Origin: Salvelinus alpinus
Lineage: Eukaryota; Chordata; Actinopteri; Salmoniformes; Salmonidae
Assembly (NCBI RefSeq): GCF_045679555.1
Contig: NC_092098.1
Coordinates: 16,754,538-16,818,537, forward strand
Reading direction: 5' to 3'
Length of the DNA: 64,000 nt
The translations under genes were made by a program, and so were the position numbers. The notes beneath the pieces are model-generated. The model was given only the letters and a program-made list of their open reading frames with translations, was not told where the DNA came from and did no database searches. Within the stretch, counting starts at the first letter, position 1. Each line of letters opens with the position of its first letter. This document shows, one piece after another, positions 515-36,000 of the stretch.

Positions 515-3094
515 TCAATCATATGACCTACTGAAGAGATAAGTCTTCAGTAAAGACTTAAAGGTTGAGACCGAGTCTGCGTCTCTCACATGGGTAGGCA
601 GACTATTCCATAAAAATGGAGATCTATAGGAGAAAGCCCTGCCTCCCGCTGTTTGCTTAGAAATTCTAGGGACAATTAGGAGGCCTGCGTCTTGTGACCG
701 TAGCGTACGTGTAGGTATGTACGGCAGGACCAACTCGGAAAGATAGGTAGGAGCAAGCCCATGTAACGCTATATAAGTTAACAGTAAAACCTTGAAATCA
801 GCCCTTGCCTTAACAGGAAGCCAGTGTAGGGAGGCTAGCACTGGAGTAATATGATCAAATTTCTTGGTTCTAGTCAGTATTCTAGCAGCCGTATTTAGCA
901 CTAACTGAAGTTTATTTAGTGCTTTATCCGGGTAGCCGGAAAGTAGAGCATTGCAGTAGTCTAACCTAGAAGTAACAAATGCATGGATTAATTTTTCTGC
1001 ATCATTTTTGGACAGAAAATGTCTGATTTTTGCAATGTTACGTAGATGGACAAAAGCTGTCCTTGAAACAGTCTTGATATGTTCGTCAAAAGAGAGATCA
1101 GGGTCAAGAGTAACGCCGAGGTCCTTCACAGTTTTATTTGAGACGACTTTACAACCATCAAGATTAATTGTCAGATTCAACAGAAGATCTCTTTGTTTCT
1201 TGAGACCTAGAACAAGCATCTCTGTTTTGTCAGAGTTTAAAAGTAGAAAGTTTGCAGCCATCCACTTCCTTATGTCTGAAACACAGGCTTCTAGCGAGGG
1301 CAATTTTGAGGCTTCACCATGTTTCATTGAAATGTACAGCTGTGTGTCATCCGCATAGCAGTGAAAGTTAACATTATGTTTTCGAATAACATCCCCAAGA
1401 GGTAAAATATATAGTGAAAACAATAGTGGTCCTAAAATGGAACCTTGAGGAACACCGAAATGTACAGTTGATTTGTCAGAGGACAAACCATTCACAGAGA
1501 CAAACTGATATCTTTCCCACAGGTAAGATCTAAACCAGGCCAGAACTTGTCCGTGTAGACCAATTTGGGTTTCCAGTCTCTCCAAAAGAATGTGGTGATC
1601 GATGGTGTCAAAGGCAGCACTAAGGTCTAGTAGCACGAGGACAGATGCAGAGCCTCGGTCTGACGCCATTAAAAGGTCATTTACCACCTTCACAAGTGCA
1701 GTCTCAGTGCTATGATGGGGTCTAAAACCAGACTGAAGCAGTTCGTATACATTGTTTGTCTTCAGGAAGGCAGTGAGTTGCTGCGCAACAGCTTTTTCTA
1801 AATTTTTTGAGAGGAATGGAAGATTCGATATAGGCCGATAGTTTTTTAGATTTTCCGGGTCAAGGTTTGGCTTTTTCAAGAGAGGCTTTATTACTGCCAC
1901 TTTTAGTGAGTTTGGTACACATCCGGTGGATAGAGAGCCGTTTATTATGTTCAACATATGAGGGCCAAGCACAGGAAGCAGCTCTTTCAGTAGTTTAGTA
2001 GGAATAGGATCCAGTATGCAGCTAGAAGGTTTAGAGGCCATGATTATTTTCATCATTGTGTCAAGAGATATAGTACTAAAACACTTGAGTGTCTCCCTTG
2101 ATCCTAGGTCCTGGCAGAGTTGTGCAGACTCAGGACAATTGAGCTTTGGAGGAATACGCAGATTTAAAGAGGAGTCCATAATTTGCTTTCTAATGATCAT
2201 GATCTTTTCCTCAAAGAAGTTCATGAATTTATTACTGCTGAAGTGAAAGCCATCCTCTCTTGGGGAATGCTGCTTTTTAGTTAGCTTTGCAACAGTATCA
2301 AAAATAAATTTTGGATTGTTCTTATTTTCCTCAATTAAGTTGGAAAAGTAGGATGATCGAGCAGCAGTGAGGGCTCTTCGGTACTGCACGGTACTGTCTT
2401 TCCAAGCTAGTCGGAAGACTTCCAGTTTGGTGTGGCGCCATTTCCGTTCCAATTTTCTGGAAGCTTGCTTCAAAGCTCGGGTATTTTCTGTATACCAGGG
2501 AGCTAGTTTCTTATGACAAATGTTTTTCGTTTTTAGGGGTGCAACTGCATCTAGGGTATTGCGCAAGGTTAAATTGAGTTCCTCAGTTAGGTGGTTAACT
2601 GATTTTTGTCCTCTGACGTCCTTGGGTAGGCAGAAGGAGTCTGGAAGGGCATCAAGGAATTTTTGTGTTGTCTGAGAATTTATAGCACGACTTTTGATGC
2701 TCCTTGGTTGGGGTCTGAGCAGATTATTTGTTGCGATTGCAAACGTAATAAAATGGTGGTCCGACAGTCCAGGATTATGAGGAAAAACATTAAGATCTAC
2801 AACATTTATTCCATGGGACAAAACTAAATCCAGAGTATGACTGTGGCAGTGAGTAGGTCCAGAGACATGTTGGACAAAACCCACTGAGTCGATGATGGCT
2901 CCGAAAGACTTTTGGAGTGGGTCTGTGGACTTCTCCATATGAATATTAAAATCACCAAAAATTTGAATATGATCTGCTATGACTACAAGGTCTGATAGGA
3001 ATTCAGGGAACTCAGAGAGGAACGCTGTATATGGCCCAGGAGGCCTATAAACAGTGGCTATAAAAAGTGATTGAGTAGGCTGCATAGATTTCAT
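515..3094 (-). CDS. LINE ORF2 main part: endonuclease C-terminal half plus reverse transcriptase
   Basis: An open frame of 859 codons. The C-terminal half of the AP-like endonuclease shows YRPPGP, FGDFNIH and LSDHHF. The reverse transcriptase follows, with motif [13 protein letters not shown], motif [11 protein letters not shown], catalytic YADD at residues 580-583, and the thumb-like LHWLPV segment typical of L2/CR1/Rex1 elements. The enzyme would nick DNA and copy its own RNA by target-primed reverse transcription. The frame begins after a break near an A11 run (sense strand), so the N-terminal part of the endonuclease is in another frame. The RT itself has no internal stop, which suggests a fairly young copy. 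It is a transposon gene, not a host gene. Confidence 0.85.
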
Positions 3095-3096
3095 GA

Positions 3097-3591
3097 CTAG
3101 AAGCTCAAAAGACGAAAACGTCTTTTTTTTTTTATAAATTGAAATTTGCTATCGTAAATGTTAGCAACACCTCCGCCTTTGCGGGATGCACGGGGGATAT
3201 GGTCACTAGTGTAACCAGGAGGTGAGGCCTCATTTAACACAGTAAATTCATCAGGCTTAAGCCATGTTTCAGTCAGGCCAATCACATCAAGATTATGATC
3301 AGTGATTAGTTCATTGACTATAACTGCCTTTGAAGTGAGGGATCTAACATTAAGTAACCCTATTTTGAGATGTGAGGTATCACGATCTCTTTCAATAATG
3401 GCAGGAATGGAGGAGGTCTTTATCCTAATGAGATTGCTAAGGCGAACACCGCCATGTTTAGTTTTCCCCAACCTAGGTCGAGGCACAGACACAGTCTCAA
3501 TGGGGATGGCTGAGCTGACTACACTGACTGTGCTATTGGCAGACTCCACTAAGCTGGCAGGTTGGCTAACAGCCTGCTGCCTGGCCTGCAC
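3097..3591 (-). pseudogene. LINE ORF2 N-terminal endonuclease part, frame-shifted from the rest
   Basis: A 164-codon frame carrying the start of the endonuclease: LLNVRSL with the metal-site Asn and GLTETWL with the catalytic Glu, followed by a glycine-rich RKGGGVA loop. The sense frame is lost at an 11-base homopolymer (T11 on + at 3123-3133), where it runs into KKKRRFR and stops. The remaining endonuclease motifs continue in the neighbouring frame (515-3094). The break could be a real indel or a sequencing error at the homopolymer. Confidence 0.75.
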
Positions 3592-4768: not shown

Positions 4769-6134
4769 CAGTGCCTTCAGAAAGTATTCACACCCCTTTT
4801 TCCACATTTTGCTGTGTTAGAGCCTGACTTTAAAATGCATTACATTTAGATTTTGTGTCACTGGCCTGCACACAATACCCCATAATGTCAAAGTGCAATT
4901 AATTGTTTTATTGCATCTTTTACAAATGAATTAAAAATAAACAGCTGAAATGTCTTGAGTCAAATATTCAACCCCTTTGACTTACTCTGTGTGCAATAAT
5001 GGTGTTTAACATGATTTTTGAATGACTACCTCATCTCTGTACCCCACACATACAATTCTCTGTAAGGTCCCTCAGTCGAGTAGTGAATTTCAAACACAGA
5101 TTCAACCACAAAGACGAGGGAGTTTGCCTCGCAAAAAGGGCACCTTTTGGTAGATGGGTAAAGAAAAAAGCAGACATTGAATATCTCTTTGAGCATGGTG
5201 ACGTTATTAATTACACTTTGGATGGTGTATCGATACACCCAGTCACTACAAAGATATAGGCGTTCCCGGAGAGGAAGGAAACCGCTCAGGGATTTCACCG
5301 TGAGGACAATGGTGACTTTAAAACAGTTACAGAGTTTAATGGCTGTGATGGGAGACAACTGAAGATGGATCCACAACATAGTAGTTATTTCACAATACTA
5401 ACCTAAATGACAGTGAAAAGAATGAAGCCTGTACAGAATAGTTTTTATTCCAAAACATGCGCAATTAACTCATATGTCCTGAATACAAAGTGTTATTTTG
5501 CGGGAAATCCAACACAACACATTACTGAGTACCACTCTTCCTATTTTCAAGCATTGTGGTGGCTGCATCATGTTATGGGTGTGTAAAACTAACCTGGTTG
5601 TCTGCTTTCCAACAGACACTGGGAGACAAATTTACCTTTCAGCAGGACAATAACCTAAAACACAAGGCCAAATTTACACTGGAGTTGCTTACCAAGACGA
5701 CATTGAATATTCCTGAGTGGCCTAGTTACAGTTTTGACTTAAATCGGCTTAAATCTATGGCAAGACTTAAATGGCTGTCCAGCAATGATCAACAACCAAC
5801 TGGACAGAGATTGAAGAATTTTAAGAATAATGTGCAAAATATTATATCATCCAGGTGTGCAATGTTCTTAGAGACTTACCCAGAAAGACTCATAGCTGTA
5901 ATCACTGCCAAACATTATTCTAACATGTATTGACTCGAGGGGTTGAATACTTCTGTAATCAAGATATGAATGTTTTTTTATATATTTTTTGACTAATTTT
6001 CAAATTTATCTTCTACTTTGACAGAATATTTTGTGTTGATCATTTACAAAAAATGACATATATTTTTATCCCACTTTGTAACGTAACATAATGTGGAAGA
6101 CGTCCTGGGGTGTGAATACTTTCTGAAGGCACTA
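4769..6134 (+). mobile_element. Tc1-like transposon of the CAGTGCCTTCAGAAAG family, degenerate
   Basis: The left terminal repeat CAGTGCCTTCAGAAAGTATT follows a TA at 4767-4768. The right end is its reverse complement (ACTTTCTGAAGGCACT, ending about 6133). The interior keeps a 3' transposase relic. It is nested inside the 4560-7170 element. The same family occurs at 41147-41333, 51826-52699 and 62798-64000. Confidence 0.85.
5556..5933 (+). pseudogene. Tc1-like transposase remnant
   Basis: A 125-codon piece of a DD34E transposase. It includes the segment around the second catalytic Asp (FTFQQDNNLKHKAK) and a damaged version of the region that should carry the catalytic Glu (PEWPSYSFDLNRLKS instead of the usual LNPIE-type motif). 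The N-terminal DNA-binding half is not in this frame. Not functional. Confidence 0.75.
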
Positions 6135-11000: not shown

Positions 11001-14000
11001 GAGCCATGCGTCCTCCGAAACACAACCCAACCAAGCCGCACTGCTTCTTGACACAGCGCGCATCCAACCCGGAAGCCAGCCGCACCAATGTGTCGGAGGA
11101 AACACTGTACACCTAGCGACCTGGTCAGCGTGCACTGCGCTCGGCCCGCCACAGGAGTCGCTAGTGCGCGATGAGACAAGGATATCCCTGCCGGCCTAAC
11201 CCGGACGACGCTGGGCCAATTGTGCTCCGCCCCATGGGCCTCCTGGTCGCGGCCGGCTGCGACAGAGCCTGGGCTCGAACCCAGGATGCCCATGTTCATA
11301 TTGACTTTAAACAAAAGTGATTTTCGTTCCGGCCTCCCGGGTGGCGCAGATTTTCATTGATATTCTTAATTTGCATGCCAATGGTTTCTGCGTCGAAAAC
11401 AAACTGATCTCGTAGTGAAATGACGCCTGTCTGTGTGTGTAGCTCTCCTCACTGTTTCAGAAGAGGTCCGCAGCCGCTGTAGCCTCAAGCACAGGAAGTC
11501 CCTGCTCCTCTCGGAAGTTACCATGGGGAATGTTCCCATGGACACGTACTCTGTGCACCACAGCGACCCCTGCTGCAGGTGAGTCTACAGGGCTGACAGA
11601 GCAGCTGAATGAATATTAGTTTCAGCTCTCTGTATTGTACAATGTCAAAAAGGAATTGTACGGACAATATGTGTTCACCTTTCATTAATGTTTTTTTCCC
11701 CCCTGCTGTGTCAGGACTCTTCGGGAGAGTCAGCCGTGGACGTCCCCCAAGGTGTCAGAACGCTACCTAGTGGCTCACTACTCCTCGGTGGGGCAGATCA
11801 GCCCCCGCACACGCAAGTCCATGAGCCTGGACATGGGCCAGCCTTCCCAGGCAAACACTAAGAAACTGCTGGGTAAGACACCTGTCAATCATTCTGCACT
11901 GCTAGAGACCAACAGAAGCATTTTAACATGAGAGAACTGGTCAGAGGGAGTTAGCCTATATAGACATGCTGACCTAGATATCCATAGAGGATCCGCCAGG
12001 TCTGTGTTAGTTTAGGTATTGTTAGTGTTTAAGTGAATTGACCTGTGTGTTTAACATGGCCATCATGTATTTTTCTATGCTGGCTCACCAGGCACTAGGA
12101 AGAGTTTTGATCACTTGATATCAGACAACAAAGCACCAAAGAGGCCAGATATGGAGTCTGGCATCACTACGCCTCCAAAGATGAGGAGGGTGGCGGAGAA
12201 CGATTATGAAATAGGTGAGTGTCCAGGTCAGTGTCTGTCTCCTGTTCACCTGACACTTACATGTTTGTGGCAGGGATGCTAGAGGTTTGACACTGACTCA
12301 TGTCTCTCTCCATCCCACAGAATCGACCCAAAGAATCTCCCACCACACCCTGAGGAAGGTGTCTGTGTCGGAGTCCAACGTGCTGCTGGATGAAGAGGTT
12401 CTCACAGACCCCAAGATCCAGGCTCTGCTGCTCACGGTCCTGGTGAGACCACTCGCTCAGCTCTCCTCCACCACCTCTGTCTTTCTCTGTCTCTCTCTTT
12501 TAAACTCCCTCTCTCACAGTTCCTCGTCATTAGTTTGTGCCTATTTCTAACATGCTGGTATAAAGTATCTCACTGTTCCTTCCTGTCTTGCCTCTATGCT
12601 ACAGGCTACGTTGGTGAAGAATACAACAGATGATTTTGACCAGAGAATCCTCTACGAGTTTTTAGCTGAAGCTAGTGTTGTCTTCCCTAGGGTCTTTCCA
12701 GTTGTGTAAGTGTTTCATTTCAACACTAAAGCCATGAACAAATATATACAGTACCAGTCTAAAGTTTGGGCACACCTACTCATTGAAGGGTTTTTCTTTA
12801 TTTTTTACTATTGATCACATTGTAGAATAATAGTGAAGACATCAGCACTATGAAATAACACATATGGAATCATGTAGTATCCAAAAGTGCTAAACAAATC
12901 AAAATATATTTTAGATTCTTCAAAGTAGCCACCCTTTGCCTTGATGACAGCTTTGCACACTCTTGGCATTCTCTCAACCAGCTTCATGAGGAATGCTTTT
13001 CCAACAGTCTTGAAGGAGTTCCCACATATGCTGGGCACTTGTTTGCTGCTTTTCCTTCACTCTGCAGTCCAACTCATCCCAAACCATCTCAATTGGGTTG
13101 AGGTTGGGTGATTGTGGAGGCCAGGTCATCTGATGTAGCACTCCATCACTCTCCTTCTTGGTCAAATAGCGCTTACACAGCCTGGAGGTGTGTTGGTTCA
13201 TTGTCCCAACACACGCAAACCAGATGGGATGGCATATCGCTGCAGAATGCTGTGGTAGCCATGCTGGTTAAGTGTGCCTTGAATTCTAAATAAATCACAG
13301 AGAGTGCCACCAGCAAAGCACCATCACACCACCATCTCCATACATCACGGTGGGAACCACACATGTGGATATCATCCGTTCACCTACTCTGTGTCTCACA
13401 AAGACACAGCGGTTGGAACCAAAAAACTCAAATTTGGACTCATTAGACCAAAGGACAGATTTCCACCGGTCTAATGTCCATTGCTCGTGTTTCTTCACCC
13501 AAGCAAGTCTCTTCTTATTATTGGTGTCCTTCAGTAGTGGTTTCTTTGCAGCAATTTGACCATGAAGGCCTGTTTCACGCAGTCTCCTCTGAACAATTGA
13601 TGTTGAGATGTCTGTTACTTGAACTCTGTGAAGCATTTATTTGGGCTGCAATCTGAGGCTGGTAACTCTAATGAACATATCCTCTGCAGCAGAGGTAACG
13701 GTGGGTCTTCCTTTCCTGAGGCAGTCCTCATGAGAGCCAGTTTCATCATAGCACTTGATGGTTTTTGCGACTGCACTTGAAGAAACTTTCAAAGTTCTTG
13801 ACATTTTCCAGATTGACTGACCTTCATGTCTTAAAGTAATGATGGACTGTTGTTTCTCTTTGCTTATTTGAGCTGTGCTTGACATAATATGGACTTGGTC
13901 TTTTACCAAATAGGGCTATCTTCTGTATACCACCCCTACCTTGTCACAACACAACTGATTGTTTCAAACACATTAAGAAGGAAATATATTCCACAAATTA

Positions 14001-14959
14001 ACTTTTAACAAGGCACACCTGTTAATGAAAATGCATGCCAGGTGAATACCTCATGAAGCTGGTTGAGAGAATGCCAAGAGTGTGCAAAGCTGTCAGTAGC
14101 AAATGGTGGCTACTTTGAAGAATCTAAAATATATTTTGATTTGTTTAGCACTTTTGGTTAATACATGATATGTGTTACTTCATAGTTGTGATGTCTTCAC
14201 TATTATTCTACAATGTAGAACATATTAAAAATAAAGAAAAACCCTTGAATGGGTAGGTGTGTCCAAACTTTTCATTGGTACTGTATATTCCTGTTAGTGT
14301 GTACACAAGCCTTCATATCATGTTGTGGTCTTCTTTCCAGTCACAACCTGCTGGACTCGAAGATCAACACCCTCCTCTCACTGTGCCAGGACCCTAACCT
14401 CCTAAACCCCATCCATGGCATCGTGCAGAGTGTGGTTTACCATGAGGAGTCACCACCCCTGTACCAGCCCTCCTACCTACAGAGTGAGAGTACACCCACT
14501 CCTCCCCCTCTCCACACACCATTACAGTTAGAACTATGGGTTCTGTGGTGATAATGTCGATTTATTAATAGTTGTTTCTTCACTTTCTCTCTCAGGCTTT
14601 GGGTTTAATGGTCTATGGCGATTCGCTGGGCCCTTCTCAAAGGTGAGCAGACAAATTGTTTGCCTCTTTAGAGTATGGAAGGTTTATTGTCTGTTTAACT
14701 TCCTTTCCATTCTGCTGTGCACACAGCAAACCCAGATCCCGGACTACGCTGAGCTGATAGTGAAGTTCCTGGATGCTTTGATTGACACGTATCTGCCGGG
14801 GATCGACGAGGAGACGAGCGAGGAGTGTCTGCGTACGCCCACGTCGCCCTACCCCCCGCCGGGCCAGAGCCAGCTCAGCATCACAGCCAACCTCAATCTC
14901 TCCAACTCCATGACCTCACTGGCCACCTCCCAGCACTCCCCAGGTCTGCACACAGATAC

Positions 14960-15055
<96 letters not shown>

Positions 15056-18000
15056 GAGCCCTTCTGTCTCTTAACAGTTTTTATTCTTTCAAATTAACTA
15101 GCTGTGATGCTTTACAGTAGCCTCCATCGCAAACTAAATAGACCTTTGACCTATTTGCGTTTTCTCGTCATCATAATAATATTCTGGCCTGTTTAGTCTT
15201 TCCATTTGACCAATCAGGAGAATCAACATGCACTAACAAATACATAGAATTAAAGAGAAATATAAAATATCAATCCATTTCCCACTGAATTCAACCTCAC
15301 CTGAAAAGTTCCATCCACTATATTGAAGCAATAAGGCCCGAGGGGGTGTGGTATATGGCCAATAAACAACAGCTAAGGGCTGTTCTTCTGCACGACGCAA
15401 CACGGAGTGCCTTGATACATCCCTTAGCCGTGGTATATTGGCCATATACCACAAACCCCTGAGGTGCCTTATTGCTATTATAAACTGGTTACCAACATAA
15501 TTAGATCAGTAAAAATAAATGTTTTGTTATACCCGTGGTATACAGTCTGATATACCACGGCTGTCAGCTAATCAGCATTCAGGGCTCGAACCACCCAGTT
15601 TATATGTAACGTTACATAGTGGGTTCACCAACTTGGTCCATGTGTAAGGCTGATTCTCTCTCTAACCTTGCATTATGTTTTTAGGTCATATTTTATTATT
15701 TAGTGTTCATCATAGACATTCCATTTCATGTTTTTGTTAACTTTTCTTTCGCCTCATTTGTTGTGCTGGATGCGGTGTAGTTTATAGACGATCTCCAACT
15801 TTGTCCCGTTTGAGGTCCCCCAAGGTGGTGCCCCCCAAAATGATGGATACAATTAAACTATAGAGCTGCAATGGCAAATAGGGTCTCAGCCTATAATATG
15901 TGCATTAGTGGTAACAACTTATTTATGTATTGTAATGTCATACTGTATGTCTTAACCATTTATTCAATTTTATACTTTTGGAAATGTTTCATTATTTGTT
16001 TTCTTAATTTAAGACATTTTTGTCATTTCTGCTATTTGGATGAAAGAATGAGCCCCCTTTTTCTATATCACTTTTCTCATGATTTATTTCTCTGTCACTC
16101 CTTTGTTAAGTTGGGTTAAGTGTTGTTTTTGTTAATCATGTTGCTCTTTGTTTGATGTCATTCCTCTTTTTGGGTTGCCATGGACACTCACTCCTGTTTC
16201 TTTCTCACTCTGTGTCTGTGAAGCTTCTCTGCCTTGCTCTAAGTCCGCTGTTTTCGCCCCACACCACGTCCGGCCAGGTATTACAGCCCCTCGTCCCCAT
16301 GCTGCTCCTCACTCCCAGGCACACGACACAGCCTCTCAGAGGTGTGTGGGGTAGCAGAGGCCCATCACAAAGCCCAACAACACAACGAGTATTTGTGATG
16401 GAAGTTGATGTACATCATGTTTCAATGCCCATACACCGTATGTCCTGTTTGAACAAAACCAGTGGCAAACCTTGACTATAGGACCTAGGCCTTCAGAGGG
16501 ACAAAAAATCTTCCAATACGTTGTATCAAAATCAAGGAAAGAACTGAAAACATAGCATCTCTTAATGCGCCCGACATTATATATTTTGTAGTCAGACCGT
16601 TCTAGATGTAGTGAAGAAGGAACAATGCTTTTTGATGATATTATGAATGAATCAAATAGGCCTGGCCGCGCTTTGGGCTCCTGCACACACAGAGACAGAA
16701 CCAGCATGGACAGTGGACACAACATAACACAAAGCATAAAATAATGTAACCAGCAAAACCAAAAACACACTGTTTACACAACCTATGGTAGCCTAACACC
16801 ACTATCACCAATAGCGACAACAGTGTCGCATCAAAGGTGAAAGGCTTGTGGTGCTGAAAGGACAGCGGCCGTCATACCTGTGCACTCCATGGCGCTGAAG
16901 GAGAGCTCGTTTTGGTGAAACACAGACACGGCTGATAGACAGGCTGCAGTCACACACACAATCAAATAATGTTAAAGAATAAGCAGCCCATTCACTCTAG
17001 TAGGCCCCGTGAAATAAGAACAATACAAAAGCACAACCATTTCATTTAAAAAATGTAATTAACAAACCAGCTATTACTTCCACGTTCATCACACTAACCG
17101 GTGATCTGAAGTTTAAATGCAACACTGTTTTACAGTCATTATTTTCAAATAGATAGCGAACAGCAAGCGAGCTGCAACCAAAAACGGTGCCACTGCAACA
17201 AAGTTTGAGAGTTCATCTTGAAATGGGGAATAGTAACGAATTAACAACAACATTCACCTTGAAGTTGATAACAACTGCTGCAGCCGCCGTTGTCACACTA
17301 CCACAACACAAGCTAGCTAACATTGTCACACTACTACAACACAAGCTAGCTAACATTGTCACACTACTACAACATAAGCTAGCTAACATTGTCACACTAC
17401 TACAACATAAGCTAGCTAACATTGTTACACTACTACAACACAAGCTAGCTAACATTGTCACACTACCACAACATAAGCTAGCTAACATTGTCACACTACT
17501 ACAACACAAGATTGCTAACATTGTCACACTACCACAACACAAGCTAGCTAACATTGTCACACTACTACAACACAAGCTAGCTAACATTACTAGTGTTACA
17601 CCTCGATCACACCTACAGGTTATTGCGTTTTGGTACACCAGAAGTACATTAATTTCCCATGGAACGCTGCCTTGCAGAATTGCGTTGCAGATGCAGTTGC
17701 AGTGCGTTCTGTGCAGTGGTGGAAAAAGTACACAATAGTCACATTTGAGTGAAAGTAAAGATACTTTAATAGAAAGTGAAATACTACTTGAGTCAGTCTC
17801 AAAGTATTTGGATTTAAATATACTTTATTAAAAGTACATGTAATTGCTAAAATATACTTAAGTATCAAATTTACTTAAGTATCAAAAGTAAAAGTATAAA
17901 TCATTTCAAATTCCTTATATTAAGCAAACCAGATGGCACAATTTTCTATTTATCTTATTTTATTTACAGATAGCTAGAGGCACACTCCAACACTCAGACA

Positions 18001-19308
18001 TCATTTACAAATGAAGCATTTGTGTTTAGTGAGACTGCCAGATCAGAGGCAGTAGGAATGACCAGGGTTTTTCTCTTGATAAGTGTGTGAATTTGATTAT
18101 TTTCCTCTCCTGCTAAGCAATCAAAATGTAATGAGTACTTTTGGGTGTCAGGGAAAATGTATGGTGTAAAATGTACATAATTTTCTTTAGGAATGTAGTG
18201 AAGTAAAAGTTGTCAAATATAAATAGTGTAGTACAGATGAACCCTAAATGTCTTTAATACTTTAAAGTATTTTTACTTAAGTACTTTACACCACTGGTTC
18301 TGTGTGGTGCATACATTGGATTTTTTTCAAGTATGCATCAAATTCTATGCGTAGATGGCTTGACAGAAATGGTAGCAGAAAAGCTGAATTTTTAACTTTT
18401 GTGGCACACATCCAGATGATGCTGCATACCATTTTGTGCAATGACACTATAGGTGTGTTTGAGGCATTAGTTTGGGAAACTACTGCTTGCACCACAAGAT
18501 TTTCCCAATGGTCCCACCATTTGCAAGCCAAATTATGATTGGTTCATTCCACTGTCACTCCAAAATTCTGCTCTGATACCGTTGAATGGTAGAGGCCTTA
18601 TGTACAGCTTCTTAAGACTTAGCCAATGGCTGGCTGAGCTAGCTAGATTTTTCTACCCAGAGACCACCAAAGAAAATCCTGATTGGATATTTCTTTCTCT
18701 TCACCGTTAACACTTCTCTTTCCAACACAAACTGAAGAGATGAAATCAGAAGATCATTACATTTATTGTAAAGATTAAATAGAAATAAAAAATATATATT
18801 TCAAAGAATATATATATTTTTTATAAATCCTTAGGCCTTCCCTGAAGGCCCTCATGGTTCACCACTGTTCAAAATACAGAGCAATCCTTTGCAGAAGTCG
18901 TGGGCACTTAGGTCAGAAATGGTGCATTTGTTTTCAGCCATTGGTACATGGGTTCACTGCTCCCCCTGCTGTTGGATTTGTAGCTTTAGAATCTGTGTTT
19001 TTTACAGTATTGATAGCCATATAAAGGTAGATTACATTTACATTTAGTTTTTCAGGTAGATAACTTAAAAGCGTTTGCATTACTTTAGAATTATAGAATA
19101 GTTTTAATGTATTAGTGTGACACATTATACCTGATGGCCTGTGTTTGGCGTGTGTCCTCCGGCAGGAATCGACAAGGAGAATGTGGAACTCTCTCCAACC
19201 ACGGGTCACTGCAACAGCGGACGCACGCGCCACGGCTCTGCCAGCCAGGTGCAGAAGCAGCGCAGTGCAGGCAGCTTCAAACGGCCCAGCATCAAGAAGA
19301 TCGTATGA
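7788..19308 (+). CDS. nf1: Neurofibromin (nf1), C-terminal 796 residues, 17 coding exons
   Basis: Join: 7788-8067, 8313-8527, 8718-8779, 9160-9301, 9728-9829, 10209-10349, 10509-10635, 10708-10839, 11443-11578, 11715-11872, 12092-12214, 12321-12442, 12605-12705, 14341-14483, 14596-14642, 14727-14943, 19166-19308. The spliced frame is 2391 nt with no stop until TGA at 19306. It is near-identical to vertebrate neurofibromin C-terminal to the Ras-GAP domain. It covers the helical HEAT-like C-terminal region, a bipartite nuclear-localisation-like KR...KMRR motif, and the terminal SIKKIV. Neurofibromin is a cytoplasmic Ras GTPase activator; the GAP domain lies upstream of the window. Seventeen exons keep the phases expected, and fifteen have the same length I recall for human exons 33-49. 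The exceptions are +27 nt (9160-9301) and -9 nt (12321-12442). Salmonids have several nf1 copies, and which one this is cannot be decided here. Confidence 0.95.
8313..8527 (+). CDS. nf1: nf1 coding exon (215 nt)
   Basis: Acceptor CTTCCAG, donor GAG|GTCAGG. It encodes [14 protein letters not shown] to ALLEIME and ends in phase 0. Confidence 0.93.
8718..8779 (+). CDS. nf1: nf1 coding exon (62 nt)
   Basis: Acceptor CCACAAG, donor AGAG|GTATGG. It encodes [20 protein letters not shown], ending in phase 2. Confidence 0.92.
8915..9074 (-). mobile_element. tRNA-derived SINE with L2-like tail, in an nf1 intron
   Basis: On the minus strand the sequence reads from a tRNA-like head with B box GGTTCGAAACCC (about 9025-9036) to a tail with the TAAGTCGCTCTGGATAAG-type motif (8939-8957), which is shared with the LINE 3' end at 28637-28660. 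This is a typical salmonid SINE that borrows a LINE tail for mobilisation. It is slightly diverged, and its flanking duplication is not clear. Confidence 0.75.
9160..9301 (+). CDS. nf1: nf1 coding exon, 142 nt, extended by 27 nt at its 3' end
   Basis: Phase 2 start completing Arg (AG|G), donor CGG|GTCTGT. The exon encodes [11 protein letters not shown] to IRILSKA and then nine codons (ASPLLSIDR) that I do not recall in mammalian neurofibromin. There the equivalent exon is 115 nt and stops after SK. At the ancestral boundary (after 9274) the genomic bases are GCCAGC, so no GT donor exists. The next GT is the one used here, with a weak consensus. Confidence 0.8.
9728..9829 (+). CDS. nf1: nf1 coding exon (102 nt)
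   Basis: Acceptor TCAATAG, donor AAG|GTACAC. Phase 0 at both ends. It encodes [14 protein letters not shown] to KLQPLLNK. Confidence 0.92.
10209..10349 (+). CDS. nf1: nf1 coding exon (141 nt)
   Basis: Acceptor CCTCCAG, donor AAG|GTACTA. It encodes [17 protein letters not shown] to SLRVFNDK, one of the most conserved stretches. Confidence 0.93.
10509..10635 (+). CDS. nf1: nf1 coding exon (127 nt)
   Basis: Acceptor CCTGTAG, donor AAAG|GTAAGT. It encodes [17 protein letters not shown] to VGHLLK. Confidence 0.93.
10708..10839 (+). CDS. nf1: nf1 coding exon (132 nt)
   Basis: Acceptor TGTCCAG, donor GCAG|GTGAGT. The intron before it is only 72 bp. It encodes [15 protein letters not shown] to NTQSVAYLA. 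Confidence 0.93.
10898..11283 (-). mobile_element. Long tRNA-derived salmonid SINE in an nf1 intron
   Basis: On the minus strand it runs from a B box (GGTTCGAGCCC, about 11271-11281) through the conserved core (ATTGGTGCGGCTGGCTTCCG near 11069-11088, and GATGAGACAAGACAGTAACT near 10956-10975) to a tail reading TTGGATACCACGAAATTGGG and an A-rich end. The tRNA-like A-box head is missing from this strand. A 19-bp head in the opposite orientation occurs at 11332-11350. Confidence 0.7.
11332..11350 (+). repeat. Orphan SINE head fragment
   Basis: GGCCTCCCGGGTGGCGCAG is the start of the same class of salmonid SINE in + orientation. The sequence after it is not SINE. Confidence 0.5.
11443..11578 (+). 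CDS. nf1: nf1 coding exon (136 nt)
   Basis: Acceptor GTGTGTAG, donor GCAG|GTGAGT. It encodes [19 protein letters not shown] to HHSDPCC. The segment after VPMDTY is less conserved. Confidence 0.92.
11715..11872 (+). CDS. nf1: nf1 coding exon (158 nt)
   Basis: Acceptor TGTGTCAG, donor CTGG|GTAAGA. It encodes [12 protein letters not shown] to [20 protein letters not shown], a Ser-rich, probably phosphorylated linker. Confidence 0.92.
12092..12214 (+). CDS. nf1: nf1 coding exon (123 nt) with nuclear-localisation-like motif
   Basis: Acceptor CTCACCAG, donor ATAG|GTGAGT. It encodes [19 protein letters not shown] then [16 protein letters not shown]. The KR (13 residues) KMRR arrangement is the bipartite NLS described for neurofibromin. 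Confidence 0.92.
12321..12442 (+). CDS. nf1: nf1 coding exon (122 nt, 9 nt shorter than human)
   Basis: Acceptor TCCCACAG, donor CTG|GTGAGA. It encodes [19 protein letters not shown] to IQALLLTVL. The Ser/Gln/His-rich piece after RIS is three residues shorter than I recall in mammals. Confidence 0.91.
12605..12705 (+). CDS. nf1: nf1 coding exon (101 nt)
   Basis: Acceptor TGCTACAG, donor GTTGT|GTAAGT. It encodes [19 protein letters not shown] to VFPRVFPV, ending in phase 2. Confidence 0.92.
12749..14283 (-). mobile_element. Complete Tc1-like transposon filling an nf1 intron
   Basis: Inverted terminal repeats: left CAGTACCAGTCTAAAGTTTG, right ending in TTTTCATTGGTACTG. TA dinucleotides flank both ends (12747-12748 and 14284-14285). 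At 1.53 kb it is full length for the family. It lies 43 bp after the upstream donor and 57 bp before the downstream acceptor, so the intron would be about 100 bp without it. Transposase is on the minus strand, antisense to nf1, and broken. A sibling lies at 57807-59356. Confidence 0.92.
12974..13909 (-). pseudogene. Tc1-like transposase, frame-shifted, first catalytic Asp lost
   Basis: Three successive minus-strand frames cover the protein. 13909-13637 has the paired-like helix-turn-helix ([29 protein letters not shown]). 13636-13295 has [17 protein letters not shown] and the first catalytic block [11 protein letters not shown], where canonical WSDE has become WSNE. 13201-12974 has [13 protein letters not shown] with the catalytic Glu. 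The segment with the second Asp (DNEPTH in another frame, near 13205) is separated by frameshifts. Cannot make an active enzyme. Confidence 0.85.
14341..14483 (+). CDS. nf1: nf1 coding exon (143 nt)
   Basis: Acceptor TTTCCAG, donor CAGA|GTGAGA. It encodes [17 protein letters not shown] to PSYLQ. Confidence 0.93.
14596..14642 (+). CDS. nf1: nf1 coding exon (47 nt)
   Basis: Acceptor CTCTCAG, donor AAG|GTGAGC. It encodes [15 protein letters not shown]. The 47-nt length is diagnostic of the penultimate region of NF1. Confidence 0.93.
14727..14943 (+). CDS. nf1: nf1 coding exon (217 nt)
   Basis: Acceptor ACACACAG, donor CCAG|GTCTGC. It encodes [18 protein letters not shown] to [12 protein letters not shown], ending in phase 1. 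The donor is weak, and a (CA)45 array starts 20 nt after the exon end. This exon is joined either directly to 19166 or to the 54-nt exon at 16224. Confidence 0.93.
14963..15052 (+). repeat. (AC)45 microsatellite downstream of an nf1 donor site
   Basis: Ninety bases of pure AC dinucleotide, starting 20 nt after the end of the exon at 14727-14943. CA arrays near donors can act as hnRNP L-dependent splicing elements; a role here is inference. Confidence 0.97.
15328..15605. mobile_element. Foldback MITE-like salmonid repeat
   Basis: An imperfect palindrome: the left arm starts GCAATAAGGC and includes GTGTGGTATATGGCCAAT (15345-15362). The right arm has TATTGGCCATATACCAC (15435-15451) and ends GGTGCCTTATTGC (15462-15474). 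A second half continues with GTGGTATACAGTCTGATATA to about 15605. This is a repeat I recognise as common in trout and salmon; no coding capacity. Confidence 0.7.
15606..16223 (+). other. nf1 intron, nothing recognised
   Basis: AT-rich intronic sequence with only short chance frames, ending in a pyrimidine-rich tract (CTCCTGTTTCTTTCTCACTC, about 16191-16210) that serves the acceptor at 16223. Confidence 0.5.
16224..16277 (+). CDS. nf1: Alternative nf1 exon, counterpart of human exon 48a (54 nt)
   Basis: Acceptor CTGTGAAG (16216-16223), donor CCAG|GTATTA (16278). Spliced in phase 1 it adds 18 in-frame residues, [18 protein letters not shown], between HSP and GIDKEN. Human alternative exon 48a is also 54 nt at the same position, and I recall its product beginning ASLPCSNSAVF. 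That match in length, phase, location and first eleven residues (one difference) makes the assignment strong. Human 48a inclusion is reported mainly in muscle. The last seven residues have diverged from the human sequence. Inclusion in fish transcripts is untested here. Confidence 0.85.
16278..17291 (+). other. nf1 intron, nothing recognised
   Basis: Non-repetitive as far as I can see; only short chance frames. Confidence 0.45.
17292..17588. repeat. Minisatellite, nine tandem 33-bp units
   Basis: The unit starts GTCACACTACTACAACACAA and ends GCTAGCTAACATT. Nine units fit 297 bp exactly. Variation is mostly ACTACTAC versus ACTACCAC, CACAAG versus CATAAG, and GATTGC replacing GCTAGC in one unit. 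Because 33 is divisible by three, both strands stay open (for example an 11-residue QHKLANIV-type repeat). That is a by-product of the period and not evidence of a gene. It lies in the last nf1 intron. Confidence 0.95.
17714..18296. mobile_element. hAT-type MITE with perfect 8-bp target duplication
   Basis: Ends CAGTGGTGGAAAAAGTAC and (reverse complement of the right end) CAGTGGTGTAAAGTAC. GTTCTGTG is duplicated exactly at 17706-17713 and 18297-18304. The interior is AT-rich with repeated ACTTAAGTA motifs and no frame. Length 583 bp. The 8-bp duplication and CAGTGG ends are hallmarks of hAT elements. Confidence 0.93.
18305..19165 (+). other. nf1 last intron, 3' part, nothing recognised
   Basis: No repeats or frames recognised. 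It ends at the acceptor GTCCTCCGGCAG. Confidence 0.45.
19166..19308 (+). CDS. nf1: nf1 terminal coding exon (143 nt including stop)
   Basis: Phase 1 start (G|GA), encoding [17 protein letters not shown] to [14 protein letters not shown] at 19306-19308. Same length as recalled for the human last coding exon. The terminal KRNS of mammals is KRPS here. Confidence 0.95.
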
Positions 19309-25273: not shown

Positions 25274-28200
25274 TTACAACTTACATTACAACGGAACGAC
25301 TTGATTAGCGTAGTGTTAGCTAGCTACATAGTTGTCTTTGCTGTCCTTGTATCCAAGATAATTGTGTAGTTTTGAGAAATTGTCGAGGTTACCTAGCCAG
25401 CTACACTTTCAAACAAAGTCAACAACGCAGCCACTGCTAGCCAGCCTACTTCACCGCCAGCAGTACTATATCATTTTAGTCAATAAGATTTTATTTTATT
25501 TTTGCAACGTAAGCTTAACTTTCTGAACATTCGAGACGTGTAGTCCACTTGTCATTCTAATCTCCTTTGCATTAGCGTAGCCTCTTCTGTTGCCTGTCAA
25601 CTATGTGTCTGTCTATCCCTCTTCTCTCCTCTCTGCACAGACCATACAAACGCTTCACACCGCGTGGCCGCCGCTACCCTAACCTGGTGGTTCCAGCACG
25701 CACGACCCACGTGGAGTTCCAGGTCTCCGGCAGCCTCTGGAACTGCCGATCTGCGGCCAACAAGGCAGAGTTCATCTCAGCCTATGCGTCCCTCCAGTCC
25801 CTCGACTTCTTGGCACTGACGGAAACATGGATTACCACTGATAACACTGCTACTCCTACTGCTCAATCCTTGTCTGCCCACGTGTTCTCGCACACCCCGA
25901 GAGCTTCTGGTCAGCGGTGTGGTGGCACTGGGATCCTCATCTCTCCCAAGTGGACATTCTCTCTTTCTCCCCTGACCCATCTGTCTATCGCCTCCTTTGA
26001 ATTCCATGCTGTCACAGTTACCAGCCCTTTCAAGCTTAACATCCTTATCATTTATCGCCCTCCAGGTTCCCTTGGAGAGTTCATCAATGAGCTTGACGCC
26101 CTGATAAGTTCCTTTCCTGAGGATGGCTCACCTCTCACAGTTCTGGGTGACTTTAACCTCCCCACGTCTACCTTTGACTCATTCCTCTCTGCCTCCTTCT
26201 TTCCACTCCTCTCCTCTTTTGACCTCACCCTCTCACCTTCCCCCCCTACTCACAAGGCAGGCAATACGCTTGACCTCATCTTTACTAGATGCTGTTTTTC
26301 CACTAATCTCATTGCAACTCCCCTCCAAGTCTCCGACCACTACCTTGTATCCTTTTCCCTCTCGCTCTCATCCAACACTTCCCACACTGCCCCTACTCGC
26401 ATGGTATCGCGCCGTCCCAACCTTCGCTCTCTCTCCCCCGCTACTCTCTCCTCTTCCATCCTATCATCTCTTCCCTCTGCTCAAACCTTCTCCAACCTAT
26501 CTCCTGATTCTGCCTCCTCAACCCTCCTCTCCTCCCTCTCTGCATCCTTTGACTCTCTATGTCCCCTATCCTCCAGGCCGGCTCGGTCCTCCCCTCCTGC
26601 TCCGTGGCTCGACGACTCACTGCGAGCTCACAGAACAGGGCTCCGGGCAGCCGAGCGGAAATGGAGGAAAACTCGCCTCCCTGCGGACCTGGCATCCTTT
26701 CACTCCCTCCTCTCTACATTCTCCTCTTCTGTCTCTGCTGCTAAAGCCACTTTCTACCACTCTAAATTCCAAGCATCTGCCTCTAACCCTAGGAAGCTCT
26801 TTGCCACCTTCTCCTCCCTCCTGAATCCTCCTCCCCCCTCCTCCCTCTCTGCGGATGACTTCGTCAACCATTTTGAAAAGAAGGTCGACGACATCCGATC
26901 CTCGTTTGCTAAGTCAAACGACACCGCTGGTTCTGCTCACACTGCCCTACCCTGTGCTTTGACCTCTTTCTCCCCTCTCTCTCCAGATGAAATCTCGCGT
27001 CTTGTGACGGCCGGCCGCCCAACAACCTGCCCGCTTGACCCTATCCCCTCCTCTCTTCTCCAGACCATTTCCGGAGACCTTCTCCCTTACCTCACCTCGC
27101 TCATCAACTCATCCTTGACCGCTGGCTACGTCCCTTCCGTCTTCAAGAGAGCGAGAGTTGCACCCCTTCTGAAAAAACCTACACTCGATCCCTCCGATGT
27201 CAACAACTACAGACCAGTATCCCTTCTTTCTTTTCTCTCCAAAACTCTTGAACGTGCCGTCCTTGGCCAGCTCTCCTGCTATCTCTCTCAGAATGACCTT
27301 CTTGATCCAAATCAGTCAGGTTTCAAGACTAGTCATTCAACTGAGACTGCTCTTCTCTGTGTCACGGAGGCGCTCCGCACTGCTAAAGCTAACTCTCTCT
27401 CCTCTGCTCTCATCCTTCTAGACCTATCGGCTGCCTTTGATACTGTGAACCATCAGATCCTCCTCTCCACCCTCTCCGAGCTGGGCATCTCCGGCGCGGC
27501 CCACGCTTGGATTGCGTCCTACCTGACAGGTCGCTCCTACCAGATGGCGTGGCGAGAATCTGTCTCCGCACCACGTGCTCTCACCACTGGTGTCCCCCAG
27601 GGCTCTGTTCTAGGCCCTCTCCTATTCTCGCTATACACCAAGTCACTTGGCTCTGTCATATCCTCACATGGTCTCTCCTATCATTGCTATGCAGACGACA
27701 CACAATTAATCTTCTCCTTTCCCCCCTCTGATAACCAGGTGGCGGATCGCGTCTCTGCATGTCTGGCAGACATATCAGTGTGGATGACGGATCACCACCT
27801 CAAGCTGAACCTCGGCAAGACGGAGCTGCTCTTCCTCCCGGGGAAGGACTGCCCGTTCCATGATCTCGCCATCACGGTTGACAACTCCATTGTGTCCTCC
27901 TCCCAGAGCGCTAAGAACCTTGGCGTGATCCTGGACAACACCCTGTCGTTCTCAACTCACATCAAGGCGGTGACCCGTTCCTGTAGGTTCATGCTCTACA
28001 ACATTCGCAGAGTACGACCCTGCCTCACACAGGAAGCAGCGCAGGTCCTAATCCAGGCACTTATCATCTCCCGTCTGGACTACTTCAACTCGCTGTTGGC
28101 TGGACTCCCTGCCTGTGCTATTAAACCCCTACAACTCATCCAGAACGCCGCAGCCCGTCTGGTGTTCAACCTTCCCAAGTTCTCTCACGTCACCCCGCTC

Positions 28201-28685
28201 CTCCGCTCTCTCCACTGGCTTCCAGTTGAAGCTCGCATCCGCTACAAGACCATGGTGCTTGCCTACGGAGCTGTGAGGGGAACGGCACCTCCGTACCTTC
28301 AGGCTCTGATCAGGCCCTACACCCAAACAAGGGCACTGCGTTCATCCACCTCTGGCCTGCTCGCCTCCCTACCTCTGAGGAAGTACAGTTCCCGCTCAGC
28401 CCAGTCAAAACTGTTCGCTGCTCTGGCACCCCAATGGTGGAACAAACTCCCTCACGACGCCAGGTCAGCGGAGTCAATCACCACCTTCCGGAGACACCTG
28501 AAACCCCACCTCTTTAAGGAATACCTAGGATAGGATAAAGTAATCCTTCTAACCCCCCCCTCCCCCTTAAAAGAGTTAGATGCACTATTGTAAAGTGGCT
28601 GTTCCACTGGATATCATAAGGTGAATGCACCAATTTGTAAGTCGCTCTGGATAAGAGCGTCTGCTAAATGACTTAAATGTAAATG
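25274..28685 (+). mobile_element. L2-like LINE (RSg-1-like tail), apparently complete, inserted in a SINE
   Basis: 3.41 kb: a 5' UTR of about 330 bp, a 976-codon ORF, and a short 3' UTR with GTAAGTCGCTCTGGATAAG (28638-28656) ending in the TAAATG-type repeat. TTGCA is present at both junctions (25269-25273 and 28686-28690), a 5-bp target duplication inside the host SINE. A second, shorter copy at 41668-43230 is almost identical, so the family was active recently. Confidence 0.9.
25603..28533 (+). CDS. LINE ORF2: intact endonuclease and reverse transcriptase, 976 aa
   Basis: Uninterrupted from ATG 25603 to TAG 28531. Endonuclease motifs: NCRSAANK, ALTETWI (about residue 70), IYRPPGS, LGDFNLP, LDLIFTR, SDHYLV (about 244). 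Reverse transcriptase: [28 protein letters not shown], motif [11 protein letters not shown] (about 606), motif B GVPQGSVLGPLLF, catalytic YADD (696-699), [20 protein letters not shown], then [13 protein letters not shown]. All expected catalytic residues are present. The first codons before the endonuclease look arbitrary, so the true start may differ. No ORF1 is seen, which is usual for many fish L2 elements. The element lies in sense orientation in akap1 intron 1. Confidence 0.9.
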   Translation: MCLSIPLLSSLHRPYKRFTPRGRRYPNLVVPARTTHVEFQVSGSLWNCRSAANKAEFISAYASLQSLDFLALTETWITTDNTATPTAQSLSAHVFSHTPRASGQRCGGTGILISPKWTFSLSPLTHLSIASFEFHAVTVTSPFKLNILIIYRPPGSLGEFINELDALISSFPEDGSPLTVLGDFNLPTSTFDSFLSASFFPLLSSFDLTLSPSPPTHKAGNTLDLIFTRCCFSTNLIATPLQVSDHYLVSFSLSLSSNTSHTAPTRMVSRRPNLRSLSPATLSSSILSSLPSAQTFSNLSPDSASSTLLSSLSASFDSLCPLSSRPARSSPPAPWLDDSLRAHRTGLRAAERKWRKTRLPADLASFHSLLSTFSSSVSAAKATFYHSKFQASASNPRKLFATFSSLLNPPPPSSLSADDFVNHFEKKVDDIRSSFAKSNDTAGSAHTALPCALTSFSPLSPDEISRLVTAGRPTTCPLDPIPSSLLQTISGDLLPYLTSLINSSLTAGYVPSVFKRARVAPLLKKPTLDPSDVNNYRPVSLLSFLSKTLERAVLGQLSCYLSQNDLLDPNQSGFKTSHSTETALLCVTEALRTAKANSLSSALILLDLSAAFDTVNHQILLSTLSELGISGAAHAWIASYLTGRSYQMAWRESVSAPRALTTGVPQGSVLGPLLFSLYTKSLGSVISSHGLSYHCYADDTQLIFSFPPSDNQVADRVSACLADISVWMTDHHLKLNLGKTELLFLPGKDCPFHDLAITVDNSIVSSSQSAKNLGVILDNTLSFSTHIKAVTRSCRFMLYNIRRVRPCLTQEAAQVLIQALIISRLDYFNSLLAGLPACAIKPLQLIQNAAARLVFNLPKFSHVTPLLRSLHWLPVEARIRYKTMVLAYGAVRGTAPPYLQALIRPYTQTRALRSSTSGLLASLPLRKYSSRSAQSKLFAALAPQWWNKLPHDARSAESITTFRRHLKPHLFKEYLG

Positions 28686-31623: not shown

Positions 31624-33079
31624 GTGTTGCTGTTAGCAGCAGGAGATTAGGTGATGGTGCTGAGGCTTCAATCCGTTCTGGTCCTCTCCCTGTCGGGAGT
31701 GTTGGCTTTCCTAGGCCTGTGGTGGTACACCTCTCGGAAGAGAGAACAACCCACTGACAAGGATAAGACGACCACAGACCAGGCGCACCTGTCCTCCTCC
31801 ACCAGAGACAGAGGTATCGGTGTTGTGGGGAACGGACACTCCACTGGGACAGATCGGGACAGGTATGCAGTGAGGCAGAGGTCGTTAGTGGAACAGGAGC
31901 TTGTTGATTGTACAAACACACAAGCGGCAGCAAAGCTGGGTAACGTCCCGCTCTGCCAATCACAACTGGAGGAAAGGGTTGTGGCTGCAGAGTGTCTGAG
32001 TAGAGGCCTCGATACTGCTACTGTGAAACCCGTTACGGAGAGAACTGAGTCTTCAGCTCAAGTACTCCCAGAGACTGCACCTAAGAGCCAAGCCCAGGAG
32101 GGACCTGAGAAGGATTTATCATTACAAAGGAAACACCAGCCATCCTCTGATGAGGAACAAGTTTCCTCTATCTTTGACCTAGGCTCTAATCCTAACCCTG
32201 GTGAGAGTGCAGGCCTAAAGCCACACGCACCGCCACTCTCTGAGACGCTGGAGGACACTACAAACAGAATTTTCAACAAAGAGGCTGCAGAGGAGGTTCG
32301 ACTAGACCCAGAGGGAGAGGTTGGAGAAGACAAGATTACATTTTGTTTTGCAGAGATGAAGCCTCAAACCAATCTGGCTGAGAACTGCCTCCTCTCCAAA
32401 GACAACCTATCTATCCTGCCTGCTGTGGAAGAACCAACCAGTGAGTCAAGTCTACAGGATGACTCCTGTCTGGCTTCCCCCATCAACCTCCTTACCAGTC
32501 AGGTGTCCCCCTCAAGGCAGCCATTGGGCATTCTGAGGTCACCTCAGAAGAAAGACCAGTCTGAGGAGTGTGAACTTAGCAGGAGTAACACAGCGGAAAT
32601 TAACCAGCTGGCGTCAAGTCTGATTACTGACGTGGTCTCAGTAGCAGTGAGTCAAGTCCTGAAGGAAAAGACCCTGCTAGAACATAATGTTGGGCCTCTC
32701 TGTAACAGGGACCCCTTCACATCCCCAGATATCATCTCAATGGGTAACAGTGAGACTGGGAGAGAGATGCCTGGTCTATTGCAGGAAGATCAGTGTTCAA
32801 CAACTGGCAGGGAGAACATATGTTCATCTCCTATAGTCTATGAGGATGTGAAACATGACTGCAGCAGTAGAGCTGAGACTGAGCAGGCAGAGCTAGCAGA
32901 AGAAGATTCTGCAGTAAGTGATTCTGGCTCCAGCTCAGGTCATTCCGAGGAGAGCTCCAGTGGCGAGGACTCGAGCCCAAGTGTGAGCCCGCAACCACCC
33001 AGGGGACCCGCTGAAGGACTGTGGGCCACCAGCATGGCCCTCCCTAACGGTCACATGACAGAGGAGGTGGCTGTTCCAG
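31624..33079 (+). CDS. akap1: akap1 first coding exon (ATG at 31654)
   Basis: Acceptor TTCTCAG, 30 nt of 5' UTR, then one large exon of 1426 coding nt ending CCAG|GTGAGT in phase 1. It encodes the mitochondrial anchor, the disordered region and the PKA-binding helix. The acidic run near the end ([20 protein letters not shown]) has the pattern of a casein-kinase-rich segment. Confidence 0.92.
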
Positions 33080-36000
33080 GTGAGTCGCCTCATAGCAGAT
33101 TTTCAATTTCTCACAATATGTCAGTATCTTTCTGTCCAAGCTGACCTGTCTCTTTTATTTCTTAGTGTTGCTGTGTAGCTGTCACACACCAGTGGTTGGT
33201 GTCCTGTTTTAGCTGTGCCTTATGAGTTCAGGACGGATTTTACTGCAGTGAAGAAATATCTTTATTTTGCATACTCTAGCATGCAGCTGCTAGAGTTCCC
33301 ATACAGAATGTGAACCTGGTTTAGTCCCAGTACTAGCTACACACCATACCGTAGACTGTTTTTACAGCTGATGATGAGGGAACATTCCCCTGCATGCTAA
33401 TTTAACTTTTTGTATTGCCTTCTTGGCGCAGTATTTTCAGGTAAGAGAACTCTCACCATGCCAGAATGTTTTTTCTTTCTCCCCTGTTACTGCTGTATGT
33501 GGGTGTTTTGTGTGCTGCTGTGTTTGCGAGGTTACATTGTGTCCACAACACAAGTGACTGTTTTTAGTGACTGGTCCGTACTGCCCCAGGCTCTGGTGTG
33601 AACAGCATGGACTCTGTAGACCGTTACGTTGAACACGAAGCCAGGGACAACCAGCATATCAACAGTCCAAGTCCGCTAAGTCAACTGCTGAACACCGATC
33701 AGCAAATTGAAAAATACGTCCAGAGTTACAACAGCAGCCAGCCACCGACTGTTTGGGACATAGAGGTGCCAAAGGTGAGTCTACCTCCCCTGTCTAACCC
33801 TCTCATCACTTCACCACATTATTGATAATATATTTTCTCTGGCTACTGATTGCCATGTTAGGTTCTCTAATGTAGGTACTTCTTTGGCTTGTAGTAGGGA
33901 CTTCAAATGTTGGACGCTATAGTCTTGAGCATCTAGTTAAATTGTGCTTAGAAAAAAATAAATAATAATCTCTACATAGTTGAACTAGTGAGAAATATAC
34001 ACTATATACAAAAGCATGTGGACACCCTTTCAAGTTTGTGGATTCGGCTACTTTTAGCCACACTCGTTGCTGACAGGTGTATAAAATTGGACACATAGCC
34101 ATGCAATCTCCATAGACAAACATTGGCAGTAGAATGGCCTTACCGAAGAGCTCAGTGACTTTCAACATGGCACTGTCAATTGATGCCACCTTTCCAACAA
34201 GTCAGTTTGAAAAAGATCTGCCCTGCTAGAGCTACACTGGTCAACTTTAAGTGTTGTTATTGTGAAGTGGAAATGCGGCAGGCTACACAAGCTCACAGAA
34301 CGGGACCGCCGAGTGCTGAAGCGTGTAGCATGTAAAAGAATAATCTGTCCCTACAGAGTTCCAAACTGCCTATGGAAGCAACGTCAGCACAATAACTGTT
34401 CGTCGGGAGCTTCATGATATGGGTTTCCATTGCCGAGCATCCGCACACAAGCCTAAGATCACCATGCGCAATGCCAAGAGTCGTTAGGAGTGGTGTAAAG
34501 CTCGCTCCCATTGGACTCTGGAGCAGTGGAAACATGTTCTCTGTAGTGATGAATCACTCTTCACTGTCTGGCTGTCCGACGGTTCGGGCAACTTATTTCC
34601 AGTGAAGGGAAATCTTCTTGCTACAACATATGACATTCTAGACGATTCTTTGTTTCCAACTTTGTGGCAACAGTTTGGGGAAGGACATTTCGTGTTTCAG
34701 CATCACAATGCCCCCATGTACAAAGTAAGGTCCATACAGAAATGGTTTGTTGATCAGTGTGGAAGAACTTGACTGGCCTGCACAGAGCCCTGACCTCAAC
34801 TCCATCGAACACCTTTGGGATGAATTGTCTAATCGCCCAACATCAGTGCCCGACCTCACTAATGATCGTGGCTGACTGGAAGCAAGTCCCCGATGCAATG
34901 TTCCATCTAGTGGAAAGCATTCCCAGAAAAGTGGAAGCTGTGATAGAAGCAAAGGGGGGACCAGCTCCATATTAATGCTTATGATTTTGGAACGATATGT
35001 TCAACGAGCAGGCGTCCACATACTTTTGGTCATGTAAAGTGTGTTTATTAAAAACACATACTACAAAAATCTTACTAAACCTAATTTAAGATGTTTTATT
35101 TTTCTATATCTTATACATTTTTATTATGCTACCTTCCATGATGTGGACAGTATGTGATACTACATTACACAAGCTGCTGTTTTTGACCACATCAAATTGG
35201 GGGGAAATACACCCTTTTTACCTCCAATTGGGGATGTTGGTATAAAAATGTATAGTCAACATGATCACACGATCAATTGCTTAAAACAGATCAATATTAT
35301 TATTATTATTATTATACCTCCCTGACCAAGGCCCTTCTTCCCTGATTGATTTGGCTGGGCGGCCAGCTCTAGGAAGAGTCTTGGTGGTTCCAAACTTCTT
35401 CCAGTTAAGAATGCTGAGGCCACTGTGTTCTTGGGAACCTTCAATGCTGCAGAAATGTTTTGGTACCCTTCCCCAGACCTGTGCCTCGACAATCCTGTCT
35501 CGAAGCTCTACGGAGTGTTCCTACGACCTCATGGCTTGGTTTTTGCTCTGACATGTACTGTCAACTGTGGGACCTTTTTATATAGACGAGTGTGTGTCTT
35601 TCCAAATCATGTCCAATCAATTGAATTTACCACAGGTGGATTCCAATCAAGTTGTAGAAACATCTAAAAAATGATCAATGGAAACAGGATGCACATGAAC
35701 TCAATTTTGGTTCTTATAGCAAAGGGTCTGAATACTGAATACTGTTTATTTTAAATTTGCAAACATTTCTTAATTTGTTTTTGCTTTGTCATTATGTGGT
35801 ATTGTGTGTAGATGTAGGAATTATAAATATTTAATCATTTTTAGAAAAAGGCTGTAACAAAATGTGGAACATGTCAAGGGGTCTGAATACTTTCCGAATG
35901 CACTGTATAGGTTATTCCAAGTTTCCCAGTGGCTTTTGTATAATGTATGTTTAAACAGAACTTTTTGGTTAAATGTGTTGCCCCTGTTCTATTGTTTTCA

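Follow-up and report, generated by a model that had tools for sequence, protein, structure and literature searches.

A probable fish counterpart of mammalian NF1 exon 48a recurs in each nf1 locus found in the Salvelinus alpinus genome

Does the long intron that precedes the last coding exon of a salmonid nf1 gene hold an optional coding exon equivalent to exon 48a of mammals? Mammalian NF1 exon 48a is described as a 54-nt exon encoding 18 residues near the C-terminus of neurofibromin, with the corresponding protein present in heart and muscle (PMC7692384, available section). The exon is also treated in the accessible portions of PMC4171599 and PMC8891636, the latter giving the alias 56alt57, which places it between the exons that flank the intron considered here. 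For the stretch of DNA analyzed, a window of 64,000 nucleotides from S. alpinus, an initial annotation made from the letters alone had proposed such an exon on the plus strand. Our literature search, with most subscription papers and database isoform predictions outside its scope, found no report of exon 48a in a fish nf1 gene.

The assignment of the surrounding gene to nf1 holds, in that the coding exons of the window match PDB chains of human neurofibromin, on the plus strand; those from ~7.77 kb to 15 kb correspond, in three frames, to human residues ~2024 to 2771. The window contains the part of nf1 downstream of the position of exon 23a. The constitutive coding exon before the intron, at 14727-14943 (+), covers human residues ~2700-2771 and ends in phase 1, its start being read from an AG in the sequence, while the last coding part, at 19166-19308 (+), runs from GIDKENV to SIKKIV with its stop at 19306-19308 and matches the human C-terminus. 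The intervening intron, given earlier as 4.2 kb, measures 4,222 nt.

The candidate exon occupies 16224-16277 (+), and re-checking found its coordinates, its length of 54 nt, its splice dinucleotides and its phase (1 at either end) to be exact. With a slash marking each junction, its acceptor reads ...CTCTGTGTCTGTGAAG/C at 16223/16224 (AG) and its donor CCAG/GTATTA at 16277/16278 (GT). When spliced in silico, inclusion of this in-frame segment keeps the frame and reaches the same stop, the product ending ...SIKKIV-stop; upon skipping, the product reads ...HSPGIDKENV..., i.e. ...SQHSPGIDKENV.... A longer chance frame was said to cover the segment, and one does exist: 121 codons at 16110-16475 in another frame, compared with the 72 codons over which the segment's own frame is open (16136-16354). 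On a simple scoring scheme that uses general splice-site frequencies, the acceptor is ordinary and the donor, CAG/GTATTACAGC at 16278-16287 (+), is weak (3.9 vs 12.6 for the consensus). Ranked by this score, the segment comes second among 70 candidates in the intron (open in-frame AG...GT segments, 30-150 nt long), so the splice sites alone would not single it out.

In length, position and frame, the segment fits the equation with human exon 48a that had been drawn for it. It shares with the human and rodent exon, which defines neurofibromin types 3 and 4, a length of 54 nt (18 residues) and a C-terminal place, the length agreeing with the section of PMC7692384 and the place, in the intron that leads to the final coding exon, with that of PMC8891636. 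Exon 23a of the same gene (type 2 neurofibromin) is likewise a short in-frame cassette, of 63 nt, but it falls within the GAP-related domain and reduces Ras-GAP activity (PMC7692384, as far as available). The fish phase 1 also fits the codon of human residue 2772, which is split at the insertion point. We take the human exon to be in phase 1 as well, in agreement with the junction residue in the human chain. Three differences from human 48a stand beside these likenesses: the last seven fish residues are unlike those we presume for the human exon, fish residue 7 is K where the human residue is presumably N, and one of the fish copies discussed below is 51 nt long. Taken together with the genomic comparisons that follow, these features make it very probable that this fish segment corresponds to mammalian 48a and is an optional coding exon of nf1. 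Weighing against this reading, weak splice sites also fit a dying exon, the last seven residues vary and one copy has 17 residues, and the human peptide is a presumed sequence, its BLOSUM match being by itself within reach of shuffles.

The exon could instead be constitutive in fish and always included, and the reading frame, which is kept upon inclusion and skipping alike, would allow it. The donor, however, is weak by the simple score, a property suited to regulated use, and the mammalian counterpart is alternative and tissue-restricted (PMC7692384 and PMC8891636, sections available). Constitutive inclusion is accordingly judged very improbable, though marginally the least so of the alternatives to an optional exon.

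The window's own genome (2.37 Gb in 928 contigs) was searched for further copies. A 254-nt nucleotide query around the exon gave four matches: itself (C13) and matches designated C1, C21 and C22. The C1 match extends over the whole query at 95% identity, while C21 (79%) and C22 (78%) match only over query positions 51-157, which comprise the exon together with the tract just upstream. A protein query combining the neurofibromin C-terminus with 48a gave 10 places among the matches listed: four last exons, four preceding exons, 48a of the window itself, and an unrelated match on C16 with 40% identity and five stops. The genome thus holds at least four nf1 loci, four being the number found by a search that scores the best candidates. 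The exon is present in 4/4 of these loci, each time bounded by AG and GT and open in frame, at lengths of 54, 54, 54 and 51 nt, the 51-nt copy (17 residues) being that of C22. The flanking coding exons are without stops in each of the four copies, and a TAG marked in two of the protein-search matches is intronic, lying just past the exon end. Of the 16 upstream exon peptides of the window, 15 are matched in C1, and the eight nearest in each of C21 and C22, all without stops; the remaining peptides gave none or short weak matches, the fetched stretches ending there or the exons lying further off.

Intron and flanking-exon identities define two close pairs, C13/C1 and C21/C22. These pairs may represent a salmonid duplication inside an older teleost duplication, as judged from pairwise identity rather than from a tree. 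In the 10 kb that follow each of the remaining nf1 copies, there was no match to the window's downstream open frames, which says little because in the window these frames lie at least 12 kb beyond nf1. In the C21 copy (L004 2063-2205), the protein ends KRPCVNKMV rather than KRPSIKKIV, which puts a cysteine at the position equivalent to Ser2813, the PKA site. Scans for the nf1 C-terminus outside this genome returned one weak match among viral contigs (42% over 35 residues, L001) and no relative among prokaryote genome contigs.

How the segment has been conserved bears on what it does, the sample being four copies from one genome. Between the two paralog groups, the exon and the ~50 nt before it form the best-conserved part of the intron: 16174-16280 is the top between-group intron match in 4/4 comparisons (71.6-94.2 bits), and the stretch at 16174-16223 (+), which carries the pyrimidine tract and acceptor, belongs to the 78-79% identity that 16174-16280 shows with C22 and C21. 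Local matches that include the exon show 78.0-88.7% identity with the other three copies. Across the four copies, the first 11 codons call for six changes at four sites, all of them synonymous, an outcome with a chance probability of 0.0006-0.0017 for transition biases from 1 to 6; codons 2-7 are identical in all four, synonymous sites included. The last seven codons vary freely: the three pairs counted, which leave out C22 for its gap, differ there at 2, 4 and 5 non-synonymous positions. The divergence of these last seven residues, first noted against the human peptide, therefore also holds between fish copies, C22 being one codon shorter there. By these substitution patterns, selection as coding sequence is evident for the first 11 codons, which encode the 11-residue core, and does not extend to the tail.

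Between groups, no amino-acid-changing difference occurs in the 11 core codons, compared with 16 nucleotide differences in changed codons for the last 62 codons of the preceding exon and 11-15 for the following 47 codons. The 26 constitutive codons directly before the insertion, however, encode identical protein in all four copies, so the core is not uniquely constrained. A proposal that the core is held more tightly than both neighboring exons was dropped, given those 26 unchanged codons and the small number, 11, on which it relied.

The same pattern of conservation could be read as that of an intronic RNA or DNA regulatory element whose open frame is incidental. Identity of codons 2-7 even at synonymous sites, conservation extending ~50 nt into the intron, and the presence nearby of a second conserved element would all be in keeping with such an element. 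Against it, none of the six changes inferred for the first 11 codons alters an amino acid, 4/4 copies retain the splice sites, the sole length change removes exactly one codon (51 nt), and frame and place match those of mammalian 48a. An incidental frame is on these grounds highly improbable, slightly more so than constitutive inclusion.

The second element, at 15771-15800 (+), lies ~425 nt upstream of the exon and is 86.7% identical to its C22 counterpart (E 4e-5); the C1-C22 match is 81% (E 2e-4). At 30-37 nt, it is the sole other between-group intron match and appears in 2/4 comparisons. No BLAST match to it was found in C21, where a similar stretch was recognized by motif, as read by eye. 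It is apparently non-coding, to judge from its sequence, and possibly a splicing enhancer. Its candidacy as a further exon was rejected, as, by eye, it lacks a pyrimidine tract and the frame after it is not kept between copies: C21 is without two bases near the start, and C22 would give 43 nt. Predicted folding was no better than that of shuffles for either region (z 0.12 for 16174-16290 and -0.83 for 15771-15820). In motif scans made without a shuffle control, two QKI-like ACTAAY motifs follow the exon in each of C21 (L004; +68 and +97) and C22 (L005; +85 and +120), with none within 200 nt downstream in C13 or C1; GCATG was absent within 200 nt on either side of the exon in all four copies; and YGCY is present at exon positions 7 and 12 in four of four, again without a shuffle control. 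Such splicing-factor motifs, read from sequence, are leads only, and the QKI and MBNL/CELF papers (PMC9122611, PMC3558374), in the parts available, concern exon 23 or 23a, not 48a. The same intron also carries a tandem array at 17290-17588 (33-nt units, 9.1 copies, 94% matches).

The comparison with the human peptide depends on a sequence that we take to begin ASLPCSNSAVF and to comprise 18 residues. The fish segment shares 10/18 residues with it, all of them within the first 11 (10/11). The best of 1000 dinucleotide shuffles of the intron reached 8 identities, and the best of 1000 peptide shuffles against the whole plus strand reached 9. The BLOSUM score of 41 was equaled by the intron shuffles (maximum 41) and exceeded by the peptide shuffles (maximum 47), and a score of 38 is reached by an unrelated segment on the minus strand of the window; because shuffles attain the observed score, the four genomic copies are stronger evidence than the peptide match. 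No paper containing the first 11 human residues was found in the literature search, and exon 48a is absent from the human neurofibromin PDB chains. Conservation of the exon over 430 million years would follow from the match to this presumed peptide. That a random open AG...GT segment, one of the 70 in this intron, was matched by chance to the presumed human peptide, at a BLOSUM score that shuffles reach, is in our view refuted and can be given almost no weight, because each of the other three nf1 copies carries the segment at the corresponding place (78.0-88.7% identity in local matches) and 10/18 identities were unreached in 2000 shuffles.

As an optional exon, 48a would act as an in-frame cassette placed within the split codon of human residue 2772; many transcripts would skip it, and some tissue would include it. 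By analogy with mammals, inclusion in heart and muscle is somewhat favored for the fish exon. Its inclusion would lengthen the C-terminal tail by 18 residues at a point 36 residues ahead of Ser2808 and 41 ahead of Ser2813. These serines are named as PKC-epsilon and PKA sites, respectively, and phosphorylation at these sites is linked to entry into the nucleus and to 14-3-3 binding (PMC7692384, section available). The added residues might create or shield a short binding motif near this region of 14-3-3 and nuclear-entry control, and a docking motif in the tail might change which partners read Ser2808 and Ser2813; this docking step is put forward tentatively, as less likely than its contrary. 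More doubtful still is an extended reading in which the core is both an ancient binding motif of muscle neurofibromin and an exonic splicing signal, with 15771-15800 serving as the inclusion switch. That reading starts from a core, retained in all four fish copies, that is conserved to the same degree as the tightest constitutive sequence next to it and has six consecutive codons without even synonymous variation; its odds are lowered because the 26 preceding codons are equally unchanged.

Elsewhere, the window carries several other features. A long frame of non-LTR retroelement type at 25576-28533 (+) matches reverse transcriptase and endonuclease families (Pfam), and a long open frame at 515-3148 (-) and a piece at 41641-43064 are non-LTR retroelement-like by eye. 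Tc1/mariner remnants lie at 5610-5909 (+), which matches Sleeping Beauty transposase (5cr4, E 1.2e-5), and at 13295-13636 (-), recognized by eye. Downstream of nf1, an open frame at 31651-33144 has an N-terminal hydrophobic segment and no Pfam family, and a Tudor domain (Pfam) is present at 44876-45220, ~12 kb past that frame. The two together are probably akap1, a gene that we take to lie 3' of nf1 in pufferfish.

Exon 48a in fish is thus a well-supported but ordinary case, a known kind of alternative exon. Information on the muscle forms of neurofibromin is limited, according to the available section of a review (PMC4171599). In zebrafish, nf1 is duplicated and its total loss is lethal (PMC6476535, in the part available), so that deletion of the exon alone would pose a cleaner question; in such a duplicated-gene system, the exon could be taken out and the remainder of the protein left intact. 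The presence of the exon in every nf1 locus found, of which there are at least four, suggests a specific role for its first 11 residues. The result amounts to a sound, ordinary gene annotation, together with a useful hint that this 11-residue core matters.
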